NCBI RefSeq assembly: GCF_028737195.1
Contig: NZ_JAQZAJ010000001.1
Location: forward strand, 744,001-808,000
DNA: 64,000 nt
Source: Pseudovibrio exalbescens
Lineage (GTDB): Bacteria > Pseudomonadota > Alphaproteobacteria > Rhizobiales > Stappiaceae
Direction of reading: 5' to 3'
The position numbers were made by a program, and so were the translations under genes. Below the pieces are notes generated by a model that saw only the letters and a program-made list of their open reading frames with translations, was not told where the DNA came from and did not search any database. Below, in pieces: positions 1 through 55,088 of the stretch (position 1 is its first letter; each line of letters opens with the position of its first letter).

Positions 1-1173
1 GCCACCGGCGTGAGAGCCTTCAGCGCGGTGTACAGCGAAGAATGCATCGACTTCCTGCATCACGCGCTCAAACGGACGGGTCTTGTAGCCGTTGGCTGTA
101 ACCGTGTTGCCGTGCATCGGGTCACAGGACCAGACAACCTTGCGGCCTTCACGTTCCACGGCACGAATGAGCTGTGGCAGATGGTCGAACACCTTGTCCG
201 CGCCGAAACGGGCGATCAGGGTCAAGCGGCCCGGTTCGTTCTCCGGGTTCAACAGGTCGATCAGTTCCAACAGGCCATCCGGAGACAGGGATGGGCCACA
301 CTTGAGACCAATCGGGTTCTTCACACCACGAGCAAACTCAATGTGTGCGTGATCAGGCTGACGGGTACGGTCCCCAATCCAGATCATGTGGCCAGAGGTG
401 GCGTAATGCTCACCAGTGGTGGAATCCACACGGGTCAGCGCCTCTTCATAGCCCAGAAGAAGCCCTTCATGGCTGGTGAAGAAATCCGTAGACCGCAACT
501 GAGGGGCGCTGTCCGGGTCGATGCCGCACGCACGCATAAACTCAAGTGCTTCGGAAATGCGATCCGCCAGTTCCTGATAGCTCTGACCCTGCGGGCTGTC
601 CTTGACGAAGCCCAGCATCCACTGATGCACATGATCCAGATTTGCAAAACCGCCCTGCGCGAAAGCACGCAGCAGGTTCAGCGTCGCAGCGGACTGGCGG
701 TAGGCCATCAGCTGACGATGTGGATCTGGCGTACGCGATTCCGGCGTAAACGCGATGTCGTTGACATTGTCCCCGCGGTAGCTCGGCAGCTCCACGCCGT
801 CCTTCGTTTCGAAGTCGGACGAGCGCGGCTTGGCGAACTGGCCTGCAATACGGCCAACCTTCACAACCGGCCGTTTCGCTCCATAGGTCAATACGACGGA
901 CATCTGCAGGAAGACACGGAAAAAGTCGCGGATGTGATCGGGATGATGCTCCGCAAAGCTCTCCGCACAATCACCACCTTGCAAGAGGAAACCACGCCCC
1001 TCGGCAACATCAGCGAGCTGCGCTTTCAACTTGCGCGCCTCACCTGCAAACACGAGCGGCGGATAAGATGCAAGGCGACGCTCGACGTCGGCCAGTGCTT
1101 CCTTATCTGGATAGTCCGGCATCTGCACGATCGGTTTTGATCGCCAGGAATCCGGTGTCCAATTTTCCGCCAT
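1..1173 (-). CDS. class II 3-deoxy-7-phosphoheptulonate (DAHP) synthase, C-terminus cut by window edge
   Basis: First enzyme of the shikimate pathway: condenses phosphoenolpyruvate and erythrose 4-phosphate into DAHP in the cytoplasm. The visible 391 residues start [10 protein letters not shown] and show the marks of the plant-type (class II) family: GGDCAES near residue 66 with the metal-binding Cys, GQFAKPRS near 111, then [15 protein letters not shown] and CDPMHGNT with the metal-binding His. Family members are about 450-470 residues, so roughly the last 65-75 lie outside the window. The start at 1173 has GGAG about 8 nt upstream. An in-frame ATG at 1194 with AAGGAGG further upstream is an alternative that adds seven residues. 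Confidence 0.93.
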
Positions 1174-1540
1174 TTTATAAACTCCAACAGTCATTGGCTT
1201 GGGGTCCCTCCTTCAAGAAACTGGGAAACCCCGACAAAATAAGTTTCGTATCGAACTCTAAGAGCAAATACGGGGTAGGCTTATACACGGCCATAGCGGC
1301 AGATGCCAGAGCCCAAACCCGCCAGATTCTGCGCTTGTTGTGAGCTTAGCTCAACAAAGCCAACCCAAGCGGAAGTTTGTTGCATGGCTTTTGGCCAAAA
1401 TAGCATAGAACCGCGGTTTTGGAGAGGCGTGCGAAAGCATGTTTCAAACTCAGGCAGATTTTTTGTATGCACAGGCAGGATCTGCGTGTCCCCACCGTCA
1501 ATTCCTGAGTCAGTGCAAGCCTTTAGCCGCCATGGTTCAT
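1174..1540. other. intergenic stretch upstream of DAHP synthase
   Basis: About 370 bp between the cyclotransferase-like gene and the DAHP synthase start, both on the minus strand. Apart from the ribosome-binding sequence next to the DAHP synthase start, I see no convincing gene, tRNA or strong hairpin. Short open frames here show no signal peptide, family motif or good start. It presumably holds the aro promoter. Confidence 0.4.
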
Positions 1541-2161
1541 CTATCGATTCAAATGCCGGGCACCGAACTCCTGCAAAAGAGAATCAATTCGGCTCTCCAA
1601 GCCCGTTGAGATCGTTACGGCACGTGGGTAGATCTTGTCCCCCCGGTCGTTGAGAACCGGCACCCGGCCCCAGCCGTCTGTGGTTTCAAAGAAGTGGCGC
1701 ACGCCCGCCTCTCCCCACAGCCGGTCGAAACCCGCCAGCACGCAGTCCAGATAGCTCAGCAGGATCGGATAGTCGTCATTGCCCCAGAAATAGTGCTGGT
1801 CCTTGATGGCATACATGAAGGTGTCTTCAGGCACGTGGGCGCTGGCATCTGGCGCAAAGCTGCCCTCCTCCAGCGTGTTGCGGTCATAGTGCCATTCACG
1901 GTCGTCCAGCCATGGCAGGTTGTCTTTCCGGTCCAGCACCATCACGCCGCGGATGTGCGCACCTTGCTTGCGGCGCACGCCCAGCGCACACACACCGGCC
2001 ATCCCGGCGTGTTCCTTGCCACGCCAGCGTGCACAGCCCCGCCATTCACGCACCCAGCCGCTCAGGCGGCCCGGTATGACCCTGGTTCCCTCTTGCAGCG
2101 TGTCCTCATTCACCAGAGAGCCATAACCGAAATAACTGATCTGGTTGACTGCAACATCCAT
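1541..2161 (-). CDS. gamma-glutamylcyclotransferase-like protein
   Basis: A 206-residue protein of the gamma-glutamylcyclotransferase fold, which releases 5-oxoproline from gamma-glutamyl peptides such as glutathione. The substrate-binding signature YFGYGSLVN lies at residues 10-18. The acidic residue in LDDREWHYDR is the likely catalytic Glu. I chose the start at 2161 because AGGAA lies about 8 nt upstream and the fold begins right after it. A longer frame opens at 2221 but would run through the terminator of the preceding gene. It follows glutathione reductase on the same strand, which fits a role in glutathione turnover. The exact substrate is not shown by sequence. Confidence 0.8.
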   Translation of the reverse strand: MDVAVNQISYFGYGSLVNEDTLQEGTRVIPGRLSGWVREWRGCARWRGKEHAGMAGVCALGVRRKQGAHIRGVMVLDRKDNLPWLDDREWHYDRNTLEEGSFAPDASAHVPEDTFMYAIKDQHYFWGNDDYPILLSYLDCVLAGFDRLWGEAGVRHFFETTDGWGRVPVLNDRGDKIYPRAVTISTGLESRIDSLLQEFGARHLNR

Positions 2162-2190
2162 GAAAATCGCTTCCTGCTCATTTAAAGGCG

Positions 2191-2218
2191 AAAAGGGCGA
2201 CCCGTTGATCGCCCTTTT
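2191..2218 (-). terminator. intrinsic terminator after glutathione reductase
   Basis: Perfect 10-bp inverted repeat, AAAAGGGCGA at 2191-2200 and its complement at 2209-2218, with an 8-nt loop. It lies 20 bp past the gor stop codon, in the right place to end the gor transcript. Confidence 0.75.
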
Positions 2219-2238
2219 CATTACGGTTGTCCTGATTA

Positions 2239-3621
2239 CTAGCCGTTCTTGCGAATGCGCTCTGTGGGCTCGCGCATAGTGACAAGCTCTTCCGCAGAGG
2301 TTGGATGAACAGCAATGGTGCGGTCGTAGTCCGCCTTGGTTGCGCCCATGGTCAGGGTCACACCGATCAGCTGAATCAACTCGCCAGACTCCGGCCCCAT
2401 GATGTGAACACCGAGGATCGTGTCTGTATCTGCGTCCACGATCATCTTCATCATTGTCTTTTCATCGCGGCCTGAAAGCGTGTGCTTCATGGGGCGGAAA
2501 GACGTCTTGTAGATGTCGATGTTGTCATAGGACGCTTCAGCTTCGGCCTGGGTCAGGCCAGCCGTGCCGATCTCGGGCTGCGAGAACACGGCTGTCGGGA
2601 TCATGCTGTGATCGACCACCCACGCCTTGTCGCCGTAGATGCTGTCAGCAAAGGCATGGCCTTCGCGCAGCGCCACGGGCGTCAGGTTGGCACGGTTGGT
2701 CACATCGCCCACGGCATAGATGTTCGGCACGTTGGTCTGGCTGTCTGCTGTCACCTTGATGGCGCCCTTGTCGTCAAGCGCAACGCCTGCCTTGTCCAAG
2801 CCGAGGTCTTCAGTGTTGGGGCTGCGGCCAATGGCGAACATCACCTTGTCGAACACGTGTTTCTCGCCGGATTTGGCGGTCACATGCAGCTCCTCGCCTT
2901 CCTTGTCGATCCGGGCAATGGTGTCCTTGGTGATGACGTTGATGCCCTTCTTCACCATCTCCTCATGAAGCGTGGTGCGCACATCATCGTCAAAGCCGCG
3001 CAGAATTTCCTCGCCGCGGTACATCAACGTGGTTTCCACGCCCATTCCGGCGAAGATGCCTGCAAATTCAACGGCGATGTAACCGCCACCGGCCACCAGG
3101 ATGCGCTTGGGCAACTCAGCCATGTGAAAGGCCTCGTTGGAGGTGATCACATGTTCGCGGCCCGGCAAGTCGGGATCAATGTTGGCCTTTGCACCCACAG
3201 CAATCAGGATACGCTCGGCCGTCACGACCGTGTTGGTTGCCAGAAGGCGGATTTGGTTTGGCCCTTCCAGCACTGCACGGGTGTCGTGCAGCTCCACACC
3301 GACCTTATCCAGATTGCGGCGGTAGATGCCTTCAAGGCGGGTGATTTCCGCGTCCTTGGCTTCAACCAGCTTGGCAAAGTCAAATGATGGCTTTTCGGAA
3401 AGACTCCAGCCGTAACCGGCGGCATCTTCAAAGTCCTTGCCGAACTTGGAGGCATAAACAAACAGCTTTTTCGGAACGCAGCCGCGAATTACGCAGGTGC
3501 CGCCGTAGCGAAATTCCTCAGCCACACCAACGCGTGCGCCATGTTGAGCGGCAATTCGCGCAGCGCGTACGCCGCCCGAACCGGCGCCTATGACGAAGAG
3601 GTCATAATCATACTGTGCCAT
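2239..3621 (-). CDS. gor: glutathione-disulfide reductase
   Basis: FAD- and NADPH-dependent flavoenzyme that keeps glutathione reduced in the cytoplasm. The 460 residues show the FAD motif GAGSGG near 12-17, the redox disulfide CVIRGCVPKK (Cys43 and Cys48), a second nucleotide-binding motif GGGYIAVEFAG with downstream arginines (YRG, ILRGFD) typical of NADPH use, and the C-terminal HPTSAEE with the catalytic His-Glu pair from the partner subunit. Length matches the bacterial family. The start at 3621 (MAQYDYD) is preferred to the longer frame from 3681, which would translate through a hairpin; an AAAAGG ribosome site lies upstream. A gamma-glutamylcyclotransferase-like gene follows. Confidence 0.95.
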   Translation of the reverse strand: MAQYDYDLFVIGAGSGGVRAARIAAQHGARVGVAEEFRYGGTCVIRGCVPKKLFVYASKFGKDFEDAAGYGWSLSEKPSFDFAKLVEAKDAEITRLEGIYRRNLDKVGVELHDTRAVLEGPNQIRLLATNTVVTAERILIAVGAKANIDPDLPGREHVITSNEAFHMAELPKRILVAGGGYIAVEFAGIFAGMGVETTLMYRGEEILRGFDDDVRTTLHEEMVKKGINVITKDTIARIDKEGEELHVTAKSGEKHVFDKVMFAIGRSPNTEDLGLDKAGVALDDKGAIKVTADSQTNVPNIYAVGDVTNRANLTPVALREGHAFADSIYGDKAWVVDHSMIPTAVFSQPEIGTAGLTQAEAEASYDNIDIYKTSFRPMKHTLSGRDEKTMMKMIVDADTDTILGVHIMGPESGELIQLIGVTLTMGATKADYDRTIAVHPTSAEELVTMREPTERIRKNG

Positions 3622-31270: not shown

Positions 31271-32696
31271 CGCCCATGCCCTCCTGGTAGCTCTGATCAC
31301 GTCCATTGTGTTGGCGCTGCTCGTCACCACGGCTTTCACCGCCCTGACGACCCTCACCAGCCTTGTCGCCTGACGCACCTCGATCGCCCTGACCAGCGAA
31401 CTGCTGCTTCAACTGGTCTGAGCCATCGTTGCGATGGTTGATGGTGATGTTGGTGCTGTCCGTGCGATAGCCGGCATCACGCAGCACCTTGGTTAGTGCC
31501 AGCGCATCACGCTGGAGCATGTCCGCAGCGTCCTTGCTGCTCGCAGTCATGGTGATTTCGAGTTCATTCCCAACCAGCTGCATGGAAACTTTTACCGTAC
31601 CCAGATTGTCTGGGCGCAGCTGGATCTCCAAAGTCTTGACCGGATTGCCGTTTTTCACGTTTTGAGCAGTTTGCGAAAGCTCACGAGCGAGCTTAGCCGG
31701 ATCACCCAGACCATTGTCGGGACCAAGTAGTGCATTGGCTACCTGGCGGGTCGGCCCTTTAAGGTCAGCAGCTGGCATGAAATGCGTTTCAGCTTTCAAG
31801 ACCTTTACGTCGCCCGCCTCTTTTGGAAGCTCGCCCTCAGCGCCCGACTTGGCCGCGGCCAGATCAACGGTCACCTTCTCTGAAGCATTAGATGGCATCA
31901 GCTTGCCATCAGCAGACTGTTCAGCGACAGCGACTTTGGCAGCTGAGGCATCAGTGCCCAAAGACGCGGCAGCCGCTTTTCCTGCCTCTTTTCCTGCTGT
32001 TGCTGTGGCCGCAGCAAGATCAACGGTCTTACCTCTTTCGCCAGAGGCTTGAGCTGGGACAGCAACTGCAGCTGCAGATGTGGCAGCCGATGAAGGCACT
32101 TGAGCCTGCCCACTCGTTTGTGATGAAACCGCGGCCAAAGCCACTGCCAATCCTTGGCCTGCGCTTCCAACCTCTGAGGAGACTGCGCCTGCGGCTTCAC
32201 CGTCTTGGCCAGCGCCTGGGGTAACTTCAAGTTGCGTTTCAGAAGGCAGTTCTGCGTCTTTAGCTTTTGCAGAGCCGCCGCTGCCAGTCGCAGCCAAGAG
32301 GTCTTTTAGGGCTTTTTCGGCATTCTCAAGCGTATCACCCTCACTTGCCCCTAAAAGCTTTGCTTCCAGCCCCTTGCCCTCTTCCGAGGCTTGGCCTTGT
32401 GTTTGCGCAGCTCCCTTTTTGCTGCCCTCCACTTTGGCCAGCAGGCTGTGCAAAGCTGTTTCAGTGCCATCAGGTGCAACACCGGCCTTTACCGATGCTT
32501 TTGGCGCTTGCTGGGCAATTTCGCCCTTCACCAAGCTTTCAGGGAGCTTCTGCTCCTTGCCTTTTCCGAGCTGCTCGAAAACAGCATTGAACTCACCGCT
32601 ACGGCCCTGTGCATCGGCTTTCTCGCCGAGGGCGTTCTTTGCGGCTTTGTTTTCTCCACCCATACCGGGGGTCATAAGGACTTGTGCGTTACTCAA
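31215..32696 (-). CDS. fliK: hook-length control protein FliK (MotD)
   Basis: Secreted ruler that sets hook length and triggers the export switch. The N-terminal two thirds are Ala/Gly/Ser/Lys-rich and low-complexity. The C-terminal Flg_hook domain includes KTLEIQLRPDNLGTVKVSMQ and ELEITMTASSKDAADMLQ, and the tail is Gly/Gln/Arg-rich. I prefer a TTG start at 32696: it overlaps the motC stop (TTGA) and has AAGGA 9 nt upstream. An ATG at 32675 (MTPGMGG) is the alternative. About 493 residues, within the range for this fast-evolving family. Confidence 0.85.
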   Translation of the reverse strand: MSNAQVLMTPGMGGENKAAKNALGEKADAQGRSGEFNAVFEQLGKGKEQKLPESLVKGEIAQQAPKASVKAGVAPDGTETALHSLLAKVEGSKKGAAQTQGQASEEGKGLEAKLLGASEGDTLENAEKALKDLLAATGSGGSAKAKDAELPSETQLEVTPGAGQDGEAAGAVSSEVGSAGQGLAVALAAVSSQTSGQAQVPSSAATSAAAVAVPAQASGERGKTVDLAAATATAGKEAGKAAAASLGTDASAAKVAVAEQSADGKLMPSNASEKVTVDLAAAKSGAEGELPKEAGDVKVLKAETHFMPAADLKGPTRQVANALLGPDNGLGDPAKLARELSQTAQNVKNGNPVKTLEIQLRPDNLGTVKVSMQLVGNELEITMTASSKDAADMLQRDALALTKVLRDAGYRTDSTNITINHRNDGSDQLKQQFAGQGDRGASGDKAGEGRQGGESRGDEQRQHNGRDQSYQEGMGGETRTGVDARDLRDGIYL

Positions 32697-33898
32697 AATT
32701 CTGCGTCCTTCAGTGTGGTGTTCGCACTGTCCAGGGAGGCTTGAGCCTGAGCGAGAACGCTCATATCCACGCCGTTCCGCTTCAAAACGGCCTGAGACAG
32801 GTGCGGTGCGAACATCGATGCCTGTTCGATCTGTGGGGTTGGCCAATCGCGGATGGAGTTCGCAACACGCGTTGCCGCGTCAGCCAGAACCTGGTTTTCG
32901 TGAGAGAGCGACCAATAGTCGAGCTGACCAATGCCGTTCAGCGCATCCCGCCAATCCTCTGTTGAGGCAAGAGAAGCCGCGATGAAAAGATCTGCCTTGA
33001 GATGCTCTTCTTCTGAAGTGCTCTCCATGTCCTTGATGACTTTGCCTGCCTTTGAGGCGAATTCAGTATTTCCGCTTACCAGCGCTGCGCGAGACAGCGT
33101 CAACAACACATGCCGACGAGAATCCTCATCAAAGTCTGCAAGAAGCTGGAATACTTTCTCCCAGTCACTTTCACGCTGCAGGTAGTAAGGCGTGCTCATG
33201 GTCGCGGCCATCTTGTCCCTGAAGTCAGGGGCAAAAACCGAGTCCGGGTACTGAAAGAGGTAGCGCTGCGCCAGGCGCTCGAACTTGTCGTGATTGCCGA
33301 GGCGCGCAGCCAGAGGTACCTGACGACGGAGCGCACTTTCCTCGACCAATGTGCCCGGCATCAAAAGGCGTGCCAAATCAAACCGTTTATTAGCCTCTTC
33401 AGGCTTGTTTGCGCTCAGCAGAATACCTTGCGCAAGTGCTACCTGTCCCGCCAACCCGGAAGGCAGACGGTGCACATCCACCTTCAACAATAGATTTTTG
33501 GCGGCCTGACGGTTGCCTTGAGAATAAGCCATCGCGCCAGCAAACAGGTTCTGGTCCGTATTGAACACAATGCCTTGACTGGCCAACTGCTGAAAGACGG
33601 AGCCTGAACCACCGCTCAGCATGAACGCCACAGCTGCGTTTGCCTGTTTCGGGATTTCCCAAACCTGCGGATCAACCGTCAAAAACCGGCGCCCCAGAAC
33701 AAGAAGCGAAGGCTGAAGAAGGTCATAGGCCTCAAGATTGCCACGGATGATCTCATCCTGAAGGATCTGCATTTCCAGAACCATCAGATCCGGATCGGCA
33801 CTGACAGATACCTGTGCCGTAGCCGGGCTGGTACCGACCCCGGCACCAACCAAGCTTAGAGCGACAAACGCGGCACGAAGATGTTTTCCAGCCCGCAT
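32693..33898 (-). CDS. motC: motility protein MotC
   Basis: Periplasmic protein of 401 residues with signal peptide (MRAGKHLRAAFVALSLVGAGV, cleavage near TAQ). It matches rhizobial MotC, which stabilises MotB in the periplasm (known from Sinorhizobium meliloti), in helical TPR-like pattern and context. RFLTVDPQVWEIPKQANAAVAFMLSGG and QVALAQGILLSANKPEEANKRF are characteristic. It lies between motB and fliK, as in S. meliloti. Confidence 0.9.
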   Translation of the reverse strand: MRAGKHLRAAFVALSLVGAGVGTSPATAQVSVSADPDLMVLEMQILQDEIIRGNLEAYDLLQPSLLVLGRRFLTVDPQVWEIPKQANAAVAFMLSGGSGSVFQQLASQGIVFNTDQNLFAGAMAYSQGNRQAAKNLLLKVDVHRLPSGLAGQVALAQGILLSANKPEEANKRFDLARLLMPGTLVEESALRRQVPLAARLGNHDKFERLAQRYLFQYPDSVFAPDFRDKMAATMSTPYYLQRESDWEKVFQLLADFDEDSRRHVLLTLSRAALVSGNTEFASKAGKVIKDMESTSEEEHLKADLFIAASLASTEDWRDALNGIGQLDYWSLSHENQVLADAATRVANSIRDWPTPQIEQASMFAPHLSQAVLKRNGVDMSVLAQAQASLDSANTTLKDAEF

Positions 33899-33901
33899 CC
33901 G

Positions 33902-35848
33902 TTACACCTCGGTATCGTTTAGAAGCATGATTTCGATACGGCGGTTTTGTGGGGCCAGTGTATCCCCAGCGATCTTGGGACGCTTGTCTGCATACCCTTC
34001 GATACCCACGATGCGGTCTTCCGGGATGCCACCGCGCAGCAGCATGTAGTAGGCCATGTGGGCACGGGCTGTCGACAGACGCCAGTTATCATAATCGCGC
34101 GACCGGAACGGACGACTGTCCGTATGCCCGCGAATGACGATGGCACCCTTCTTCGACTTCAGCACCTCGGCAATGCGCTCCATGGCAGCAACAACCTGCG
34201 GGCGAGGCTCAGCAGACCCCACGGCAAACATACCGAAACGCTCGTTATCCATGATCTGGATCAGAACACCGTTGGCGTTTTGCGAGAAGTCTATACTTGC
34301 GCCCGACGCAACACCCTTCAGAGCGTTACCAATTTCAGAACGGATCTCCGCAAGCTCTTGAGCGTCAACAGGTTTCGCCTGAGGTACGGTTGGTTTCGTC
34401 TCTCCGATGCCCTGTTCGCTCTTGTCAGAAACACCCACAAGCGCAACGTTGGTTTCACCGTCTAGCGGCTGATCCGAAGTGCCATCTTCTCCCTGCGAAG
34501 AACTGCCAGTATCCGTCTCAGAGGATGTGCCGTTTTCAGCCTCCCCAGAAGATCCGTTCTCTGTGAAATTAGAGGTTCCGTTCTGGTTGACGTTGGACGT
34601 GCCGTTGAAAGGAAGCTCTGAACTGCCGTTTTCTGCTAGCTCGGAAGTTTCATCAACGGACACGTTGAATTCTGTGCTCTCCGCATTGCTTGCGGCGAGT
34701 TCAGCCTGTTCCGAACCGTCGGCTTCCGATTGCGTCGCCCGCACTGCCCGGGTCTCTGCAACAGCGCCTGCGATCTCTGCAAACTCCTGCTGTTCAGGAT
34801 CCAGGCCAACGTTTTCCGGAGATTGGCCCAGCACGATCACACGGCTGCTGCTGCCGCCTTCTTCCTGCGTTTCAGCACGTTCGAGCAAGCCAGTTTCCGT
34901 GCCCTGCTCCAGTCCTTCGGTATCAGACCCAGCTTCCGGACGATAAACGACGGAAGACCCACTGGTGAGCGCTTCTTCTGAGCCCTCCATATTCGGGTCG
35001 CTGATGCCTGCACGCGCAAGATCTTTTGCATCTTCCAGAACACGGATTTGCTCTGCAGAAAGTTCTGTTACGTCGAGACCGTTCTCAACCTCAGTCACGA
35101 TCGGAACGCGGGCCAACAATGGCGAGTTGCCCGGAAGCTCCTCACTCTGCCAGCCAGATGGATCGAATGGATCGCGGAAACTGGACCCATCAGCGAGACC
35201 CTGGCCGTCAGGATCGCGGTTAGGACGGGCAAACAAGACCGGCGTCGTTGCTGCTTCCATGGAACCCGGACCACCCTGACCTGCGGAGCCGTCCGTTTGA
35301 ACCAGAGCCTCGGCTTCAACTGCCAGTGCAGCAAGGATCGCATAAGGATTGTCGAAGAGTTCTTGTTCAGTATAGCGCCCTGCTTCACCGGCCTGCGGGG
35401 TGCGCATGCGGGAAGCTTCGCCCGGAACACTGTCAGCTGTCTGGCCAGGTCCCTTGGGCTGCTTGTCAACATCTTCGGTGATTGGCTCAGCTTTGTCGCT
35501 GCCGCCGCCGGTGGTGGGGCCCTCAAGTTCAGTGCCACCCTCACCGGCCTTTTTCATGTCGTCAACGCCTTCGTTGCCCTCAGCCGGCGGGTTTTCATCC
35601 TCAGGATCACGAAGACCTTTTCGCTCGGATGCAGTGTCTACAATCTTCATCGGATTGAAGTAGGCTACAACACCCTGACGCGTTGCGTTGTCAGAGGCAT
35701 TGACCAGCCACATGACCAGAAAGAACGCCATCATTGCGGTGGTAAAGTCAGCGTAGGCGATCTTCCAGACACCGGATTTGACACCCTGGTCCATATCGTC
35801 ATTTCGCCGACGAACAATGATGATTTCAGACTGTTCTTTTTCAGCCAT
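33902..35848 (-). CDS. motB: flagellar stator protein MotB with greatly extended linker
   Basis: Stator subunit that anchors the motor to peptidoglycan and carries protons. The single transmembrane helix AYADFTTAMMAFFLVMWLV (near 30-48) contains the essential Asp. The C-terminal OmpA-like domain is complete (IVIRGHTDSRPF, NWRLSTARAHMAYYML, DRIVGIEGYADKRP). At 648 residues it is far longer than E. coli MotB (308) and S. meliloti MotB (about 390). The extra sequence is an acidic, Gly/Ser/Glu-rich linker from about residue 70 to 480 that ends in nine octapeptide repeats. The ATG at 35848 is used; a GTG at 35854 is possible. Confidence 0.93.
   Translation of the reverse strand: MAEKEQSEIIIVRRRNDDMDQGVKSGVWKIAYADFTTAMMAFFLVMWLVNASDNATRQGVVAYFNPMKIVDTASERKGLRDPEDENPPAEGNEGVDDMKKAGEGGTELEGPTTGGGSDKAEPITEDVDKQPKGPGQTADSVPGEASRMRTPQAGEAGRYTEQELFDNPYAILAALAVEAEALVQTDGSAGQGGPGSMEAATTPVLFARPNRDPDGQGLADGSSFRDPFDPSGWQSEELPGNSPLLARVPIVTEVENGLDVTELSAEQIRVLEDAKDLARAGISDPNMEGSEEALTSGSSVVYRPEAGSDTEGLEQGTETGLLERAETQEEGGSSSRVIVLGQSPENVGLDPEQQEFAEIAGAVAETRAVRATQSEADGSEQAELAASNAESTEFNVSVDETSELAENGSSELPFNGTSNVNQNGTSNFTENGSSGEAENGTSSETDTGSSSQGEDGTSDQPLDGETNVALVGVSDKSEQGIGETKPTVPQAKPVDAQELAEIRSEIGNALKGVASGASIDFSQNANGVLIQIMDNERFGMFAVGSAEPRPQVVAAMERIAEVLKSKKGAIVIRGHTDSRPFRSRDYDNWRLSTARAHMAYYMLLRGGIPEDRIVGIEGYADKRPKIAGDTLAPQNRRIEIMLLNDTEV
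34427..34642 (-). repeat. nine tandem degenerate octapeptide (24-bp) repeats inside motB
   Basis: Read in frame, the MotB linker contains nine consecutive 8-residue units with no gap: ELAENGSS, ELPFNGTS, NVNQNGTS, NFTENGSS, GEAENGTS, SETDTGSS, SQGEDGTS, DQPLDGET, NVALVGVS. Gly is invariant at position 6. Position 5 is Asn or Asp in seven of nine, and position 8 is Ser or Thr in all. A tenth partial unit (NVSVDETS) precedes them. The DNA is less regular than the protein, so the pattern seems kept by selection rather than by fresh slippage. Confidence 0.9.
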
Positions 35849-35856
35849 TGCCACAC

Positions 35857-53771: not shown

Positions 53772-55088
53772 ATGCACCATCTTGAGAGGCTTCAAAAGCT
53801 GACGAGAAGCATCCCGGCAGATGCTTGGGATATCGATATCAGCGGCACGCTCAGTGAAGTCACGGCAAACTATTTGCGGGTAAAAGGGCTTTCCAGCGGG
53901 GTTAGCTTGGGCGACCAAGTCTCGTTTTCGAACGGGCGAGAGACCTGCTTTGGCGAGATCATCAAGATTGATGCTGAAAGCGTCATCGTCAAACCCTATG
54001 CCACCCGCAACGACCTGGGGCTGGGCACCAAAATCAAACGTAGCGGCGATTTGAGCCTGCGTCCTGATGCAAGCTGGAAAGGCCGGGTCATCAATGCCAT
54101 GGGCAAACCGGTTGACGGAAAAGGGGCACTGGGACGCGGTGAAGAGGACATTCCCTTCAATCAATCCCCTCCCCCTGCCATCAACCGAGCCCGGGTTACC
54201 AAACACGCGCGAACTGGGGTTCGCGTCCTCGACATATTCACCCCTATGATGCACGGGCAGCGCCTTGGCATCTTTGCCGGTTCGGGCGTTGGCAAGTCCA
54301 CAACGCTCTCAATGATTGCCCGAAGCAACTCCTTCGATACGGTTGTGATTGGCCTCATTGGCGAACGTGGGCGAGAAGTTCGTGAGTTTATCGAGGACAC
54401 GCTTGGCGAACAGATGGGTAAATCTGTTGTTGTCGTCGCTACGGGTGATGAAAGCGCAATGATGCGCCGCCTTGCCCCTAAGACCGCAGTTTCCGTAGCA
54501 GAATACTATCGAGACAGAGGGGATTCCGTCCTGCTGGTACTGGATAGCATCACCCGCTATGCGCACGCATTACGCGACGTTGCTCTGGCTGCAGGTGAGC
54601 CCGCTGTATCGCGTGGCTATCCTCCGAGCGTCTTTACCGAGCTTCCAGCTCTTCTGGAACGCACGGGACCTGGTGTCGAAGGCAGCGGCATGATCACTGC
54701 TGTCATCTCCGTGCTTGTCGATGGCGACGATCACAACGATCCAGTAGCAGACAACATTCGCGGTCTTCTGGATGGTCACATTGTTCTGGACCGCCACATT
54801 GCAGAGGATGGCCGCTACCCGGCGGTCAACATTTTGTCTTCTGTCTCTCGACTTGCTCAGCACGCATGGTCTCCTCAAGAGCGGGAACTTGTGCTCAAAC
54901 TACGATCGATGGTGGCCAAGTTTGAGGACACGAAAGATCTTCGCATGATGGGCGGCTACAAACAGGGCGTAGAGCCGTTTCTGGATCAAGCCATAGAACT
55001 GGTACCCAAGCTCTATAATGCGCTCTCACAGAGCAGCACAGCCCCTTCCAGCACTGATGCGTTCACGGAACTGGCGCAGATGCTCTGA
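53772..55088 (+). CDS. fliI: flagellar export ATPase FliI
   Basis: ATPase of the flagellar type III exporter, 438 residues. Walker A GSGVGKST at 170-177, GLIGERGREVREF near 195, Walker B VLLVLDSITRYA near 256, and PPSVFTELPALLERTGPG. The N-terminal part is the FliI beta-barrel. It starts directly after the preceding stop codon. Confidence 0.96.
   Translation: MHHLERLQKLTRSIPADAWDIDISGTLSEVTANYLRVKGLSSGVSLGDQVSFSNGRETCFGEIIKIDAESVIVKPYATRNDLGLGTKIKRSGDLSLRPDASWKGRVINAMGKPVDGKGALGRGEEDIPFNQSPPPAINRARVTKHARTGVRVLDIFTPMMHGQRLGIFAGSGVGKSTTLSMIARSNSFDTVVIGLIGERGREVREFIEDTLGEQMGKSVVVVATGDESAMMRRLAPKTAVSVAEYYRDRGDSVLLVLDSITRYAHALRDVALAAGEPAVSRGYPPSVFTELPALLERTGPGVEGSGMITAVISVLVDGDDHNDPVADNIRGLLDGHIVLDRHIAEDGRYPAVNILSSVSRLAQHAWSPQERELVLKLRSMVAKFEDTKDLRMMGGYKQGVEPFLDQAIELVPKLYNALSQSSTAPSSTDAFTELAQML

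Follow-up and report, generated by a model that had tools for sequence, protein, structure and literature searches.

Flagellar MotB proteins carry a plug-plus-linker segment that is longer and richer in Gly than that of their non-flagellar relatives, according to a published comparison (PMC12505986). In other reports, regulation of ion conductance is ascribed to the plug and linker and a functional PomB lacking residues 41-120 is described (PMC9093738), and in H. pylori the linker is reported to take part in both inhibition and activation (PMC5647336). Alignments of stator proteins usually discard the linker as variable filler. Here we describe a linker in which a period is kept while the rest drifts: an array of eight-residue units (octads) in the MotB protein of the marine bacterium Pseudovibrio exalbescens, encoded within a 64,000-nucleotide stretch of contig NZ_JAQZAJ010000001.1 (positions 744,001 to 808,000; hereafter the window). 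The portions of the open-access literature available to us describe no octad or tandem repeat in a MotB linker, and the statement in the initial annotation of this DNA that no such repeat had been described in a stator protein agrees with the literature to that extent.

The gene, its two domains and the array are arranged as follows:

33902..35854, minus strand: motB, 650 codons, from Pfam and NCBIfam matches.
35654..35794, minus strand: transmembrane helix plus plug (Pfam MotB_plug, residues 21-67).
34451..34642, minus strand: octad array, eight good units (residues 405-468) with a net charge of -13, from the translation, register and unit list.
34403..34450, minus strand: two degenerate units, NVALVGVS and DKSEQGIG, in which only the Gly register is left, from the translation.
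33953..34231, minus strand: OmpA-like peptidoglycan-binding domain (residues 542-634), from Pfam, with a predicted local distance difference test score (pLDDT) mostly above 90.

The MotB_plug domain is present (Pfam PF13677, 54.7 bits against a cut-off of 24, E 7.8e-15), as is the C-terminal OmpA-like peptidoglycan-binding domain (Pfam PF00691, 43.6 bits against 27.2, E 4e-11), and the protein belongs to the MotB family NF004651 (NCBIfam, 381 bits against a curated cut-off of 342); judged by these sequence matches, the gene product is a true flagellar MotB stator protein. Its likelier start is the ATG at codon 3, and the open reading frame (ORF) of a sister species begins at the equivalent Met. 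The linker from the plug to the OmpA-like domain spans roughly 400 residues, and the Pfam domain positions agree with the earlier placement of the array between the plug and the peptidoglycan-binding domain.

Translation of 34427-34642 on the minus strand gives exactly nine gapless 8-residue units with Gly at position 6 in every one of them, just as had been claimed, and a tenth in-register Gly follows directly at 34403-34426; residues 405-484 accordingly hold ten Gly at exact eight-residue spacing, divided between the eight good and the two degenerate units (in the sister species the first degenerate unit lacks the Gly in register). The motif originally given for the units, xxxx(N/D)G(S/T)S, holds for its invariant Gly, but in its strict form it is matched by only six of the nine (units 1-5 and 7), with Asn or Asp in 7/9, Ser or Thr in 7/9 and the final Ser in 8/9. 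The 64 residues of the eight good units include 12 Ser, 10 Gly, 9 Glu, 8 Asn and 8 Thr, and no Lys or Arg. Such a run of Gly is not expected by chance. When the 80-residue array was shuffled 20,000 times, Gly at period 8 ran to seven at most (3 shuffles) and ten was never reached; when the linker (415 residues as used in this test) was shuffled 3,000 times and runs of every residue and every period between 2 and 30 were counted, the longest was eight (3 shuffles), again short of ten.

We read the array as an acidic and disordered spacer, rich in Gly, Ser and Thr, that lies where the linker evolves fast, next to the peptidoglycan-binding domain, and that changes its length by whole octads, and we assign this reading a probability of roughly 0.6. 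The array may have originated when a 24-base unit was duplicated in tandem in a single Pseudovibrio branch, its length changing thereafter in unit steps. A Gly and a Ser/Thr at eight-residue intervals would keep the tether soluble and pliable, which could let the OmpA-like domain find the cell wall and stay attached to it during movements of the plug end.

The predicted lack of structure carries the first part of this reading. In an AlphaFold prediction with 33 homologues, the ten-residue blocks of the array had pLDDT values of 30-38 and were assigned no secondary structure; every residue in 379-492 fell below 50, and most of the OmpA-like domain exceeded 90. A second prediction, made from the three MotBs that carry octads, had a predicted template modelling score of 0.10 and no strand or helix assigned. 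The initial annotation had suggested a folded or elastic element, perhaps a small beta-solenoid, and neither prediction supports a fold, with the proviso that the alignments are thin over the array, which may have weak order or an oligomeric fold. That the octads form ordered beta strands, as the octapeptides of the triple-stranded beta-helical needle of phage T4 gp5 do, we regard as very unlikely. When the units are set in the gp5 register, position a is Gly in 21 of 21 units (the units being themselves defined by Gly), position h holds polar residues and position g is Phe or Leu in 8 of 21, all of which would suit such a helix, but position b is mostly Ser or Thr (15/21) rather than Asn or Asp, and position g has no Val and is Glu in 10 of 21. 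AlphaFold, run on single chains, assigns no strands, and gp5 requires three chains whereas a stator contains two MotB. Sequence comparison likewise offers no match, with none in Pfam for the arrays of two species at E up to 10, a best match of 0.051 in PHROGs and one of 0.6 among Protein Data Bank (PDB) sequences.

The glycosylated or metal-binding spacer that had also been envisaged strikes us as highly improbable. The array is rich in Ser and Thr and contains five N-G-S/T sequons in this species, yet these drop to 2 and 1 in the other two carriers and are thus not kept, and the spacing of its acidic residues, read by eye against a DxDxDG-like pattern, is unlike that of calcium loops. Taken as a whole, the earlier interpretation of the array is partly supported, namely in its position, its strict period and its diverged DNA.

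The DNA of the units indicates how old the repeats are. Unit-to-unit identity among the eight good units was 48.4%, against 46.2% (standard deviation 1.6) for random synonymous codons, with 11% of simulations as high; for the nine units of the related carrier G011, whose MotB is 73% identical overall to that of this species, it was 49.0% against 48.7% simulated, with 41.5% of simulations as high. The resemblance among units at the DNA level does not go beyond what their amino acids demand, and no trace of recent copying is left. Tandem Repeats Finder reported no DNA array over the octads, which, together with the randomised synonymous sites among units, agrees with the 'variable DNA' remarked on initially. 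Recent DNA slippage was considered and rejected, there being no DNA array and the unit DNA being no closer than random synonymous copies.

Synonymous sites have reached saturation between this species and G011 (proportion of synonymous sites that differ, pS, 0.69-0.97 by region and 0.83 over the array). Even so, the Gly and last Ser/Thr of the units are identical at 16 of 16 aligned sites, compared with 21 of 48 for the other six positions (p 2.6e-5), in a test that is partly circular, the units being defined by Gly and the gap having been placed by the aligner. For the last unit position alone the comparison is 8/8 against 21/48 (p 0.003). Within the array the two best carriers differ in length by one 8-residue unit only; immediately upstream, their linkers align with gaps of 1, 6 and 18 residues. 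Because the Gly and last Ser/Thr are kept despite saturated synonymous sites, the octad register is old and probably, though not certainly, under selection.

Several points weigh against the spacer reading. The proportion of nonsynonymous sites that differ (pN) is 0.274 over the array, no lower than in the rest of the fast linker (0.277 and 0.303); of 11 Gly sites in other parts of the fast linker 8 are kept, a share that does not differ significantly from the 8/8 of the array (p 0.17); and one of the compared G011 units is a merger of two across the alignment gap. The disorder was predicted by a single program, from single chains and with few sequences covering the array. In addition, a pure spacer needs no exact eight-residue register, and the kept Gly and Ser/Thr hint at a more specific role. 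The similar pN of array and surroundings and the mostly kept Gly elsewhere would also fit a register that is merely inherited, in which old tandem duplications left Gly and Ser to survive by weak constraint on composition, as a period without function. Indels are generally rarer than substitutions, and given this rarity a register can outlive selection. Against mere inheritance stands the last unit position, fully kept where synonymous sites are saturated; we consider this explanation unlikely, with an appreciable chance of being right, and infer selection on the register instead.

To see how widely the array occurs, we searched the genus with the array peptide, which matched MotB in 3 of 16 Pseudovibrio genomes at E up to 1 and no other protein. 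The three carriers have ten (this species), nine (G011) and four (G010, locus L016) Gly in register, and the remaining 13 genomes have at most three, which is background. Our MotB survey read 122 of 128 loci and yielded 104 distinct MotBs; six loci (L028, L043, L044, L080, L089 and L095) gave no MotB frame by the search pattern, and the GTDB scan for MotB loci kept the best 80 of at least 590 confirmed candidates. Five of the 104 carry a Gly run (periods 4-15) reached by fewer than 1 in 1,000 shuffles. The run of four Gly in L016 is not among these, and its relation to the other two carriers is indicated by an E of 0.0064 in the genus array-peptide search and by its position; its E of 2.3e-14 in the family profile search is circular, L016 being part of the model. 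Outside the genus, only L125 (Beijerinckiaceae) has more than three period-8 Gly among the 104 MotBs, namely five among Lys- and Asp-rich residues in a sequence unlike the octads (p 0.034 uncorrected, which loses significance once 104 tests are allowed for). A tree of 24 MotBs, built without the linker, requires two changes of the octad label, with a weakly supported backbone that is compatible with a single origin; the third carrier, L016, pairs with the non-carrier L005 at 93/93 support, below the tool's star.

Profile searches, made with the array or the three-carrier profile, extended this to wider sets, those of the order and class being samples. At E up to 0.1 they matched 6 of 87 family genomes, the known carriers accounting for three, and at E up to 0.01 they matched 5 of 397 order genomes and 4 of 385 class genomes, each of these two counts including the own genome. 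The remaining matches (3 + 4 + 3 genomes) resemble no MotB, judged from the centre of each locus, and no further MotB array was found in these 87, 397 and 385 genomes at the limits used. Phages and plasmids gave no protein match to the array, and plasmids also no DNA match. A repeat family common to other proteins was rejected on the outcome of these searches. Homologues lacking an octad register, which the initial annotation had named as refuting its interpretation, occur in 13 of the 16 genus genomes, so that on present sequence comparisons the array is a lineage-specific trait and not a general MotB feature. Comparing copy number among relatives, as had been suggested, revealed the whole-octad difference between the best carriers, but the array is confined to 3 of 16 genomes. 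This whole-unit length series in three species offers natural material on whether tether length or composition sets stator anchoring.

Two frames recovered alongside have Gly runs that look real but are of other sequence than the octads. A non-MotB frame of no Pfam family in genome G265 (L136:823-2019, plus strand), found by the octad profile, has seven Gly at an eight-residue interval, with aromatic or aliphatic residues preceding several of them, and an unrelated long minus-strand frame in L139 (nt 83-3115) has 13 Gly at the same interval in NGYGDQ-type repeats. Other Gly registers occur in MotB itself. The L012 MotB of the same genus (G013; ORF 658-2814, minus strand) has seven Gly at an exact six-residue interval in residues 411-452, and its relative L003 keeps four of these; the MotB linkers of L102 and L119, from Rhodospirillales-type metagenome-assembled genomes, have eight and nine Gly at a five-residue interval. 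Like the octads, these hexads and pentads are Gly at a constant interval in a MotB linker, but they differ in period and in the residues between, and no sequence relation was shown.

With periods of six and five in other MotB linkers, the exact period is evidently not fixed among them, and the recurrence of a Gly register at differing periods would favour spacing or pliability over one specific fold. A bolder proposal sees in the octads a ruler that is countable and under selection: each unit would be a fixed increment, with a calculated contour length of ~2.9 nm, or a weak binding site, its gain or loss as a whole would tune stator tethering in Pseudovibrio, and other MotB lineages would reach the same end with hexads and pentads; we think this improbable as it stands.

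Upstream of the octads the linker contains a second element of note, and three further features bear on it:

35150..35176, minus strand: RDPFDPxxW motif (residues 227-235), inside the conserved block, from the motif position.
34994..35374, minus strand: conserved linker block (residues 161-287), with low pN against G011.
32693..33898, minus strand: motC, adjoining motB; NCBIfam NF009441 is the best match (7.7e-78), below its cut-off.

The pN of the conserved block against G011 is 0.066, as low as that of the transmembrane and plug part, compared with about 0.3 in the fast linker. When only loci with 1,200 or more bases downstream are counted, which gives 102 distinct MotBs, RDPFDPxxW and a MotC-like ORF occur together in 69, the motif alone in 0, MotC alone in 6 and neither in 27. 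With the looser DPF[DN]P and all 104 MotBs these numbers are 73, 0, 3 and 28, and L117, which is among the three with MotC only, matches MotC weakly (7.1e-5). In both counts, then, every motif lies beside a MotC gene; the matches used to build the MotC model come from these very loci, and common descent could account for the association. A MotB-MotC interaction has been proposed, and in the literature accessible to us we found no paper that locates the MotC contact on MotB. We put forward RDPFDPxxW as a candidate MotC docking site, a lead that would give a concrete place for MotC to meet MotB.

The octads themselves might instead be repeated docking motifs, with multiple copies of [ND]G[ST]S giving weak multivalent binding to a periplasmic partner such as MotC, peptidoglycan or another part of the motor scaffold. 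Drift at the four leading positions alongside a kept Gly and last Ser/Thr, the predicted disorder and the adjoining motC would all accord with this. The octads are nevertheless absent from 13 of 16 genus genomes, yet MotC-like ORFs lie beside motB at 76 of 104 MotB loci, and it is the other linker element, DPF[DN]P, that tracks MotC; we hold docking by the octads to be a slim prospect.

Elsewhere in the window lie two 18-base copies at 54766-54801, the sole tandem repeat that Tandem Repeats Finder reported in it.

Three described systems come closest to the disordered spacer proposed here. The first is the MotB family NF004651 (PRK05996) of MotC-bearing Alphaproteobacteria, of which this MotB, with its adjacent motC, is a full member by cut-off, and of whose members read here most have no octads. 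The second is the octapeptide beta-helix of phage T4 gp5, the best known octapeptide structure with dominant Gly: the eight-residue period fits the array, but the Asn/Asp at b and Val at g of that trimeric helix (PMC3004832) are preferences that the octads, with no predicted strands, do not share. The third is the MotB region covered in PMC12505986, which like the array lies between the transmembrane and plug part and the OmpA-like domain of the same protein, is enriched in Gly and is long; it differs in that here Gly stands in exact eight-residue register within a linker of ~400 residues, compared with 52 residues for the E. coli reference plug-plus-linker. The Gly-rich MotB linker was therefore already known, and what is new here is its form as an octad array.
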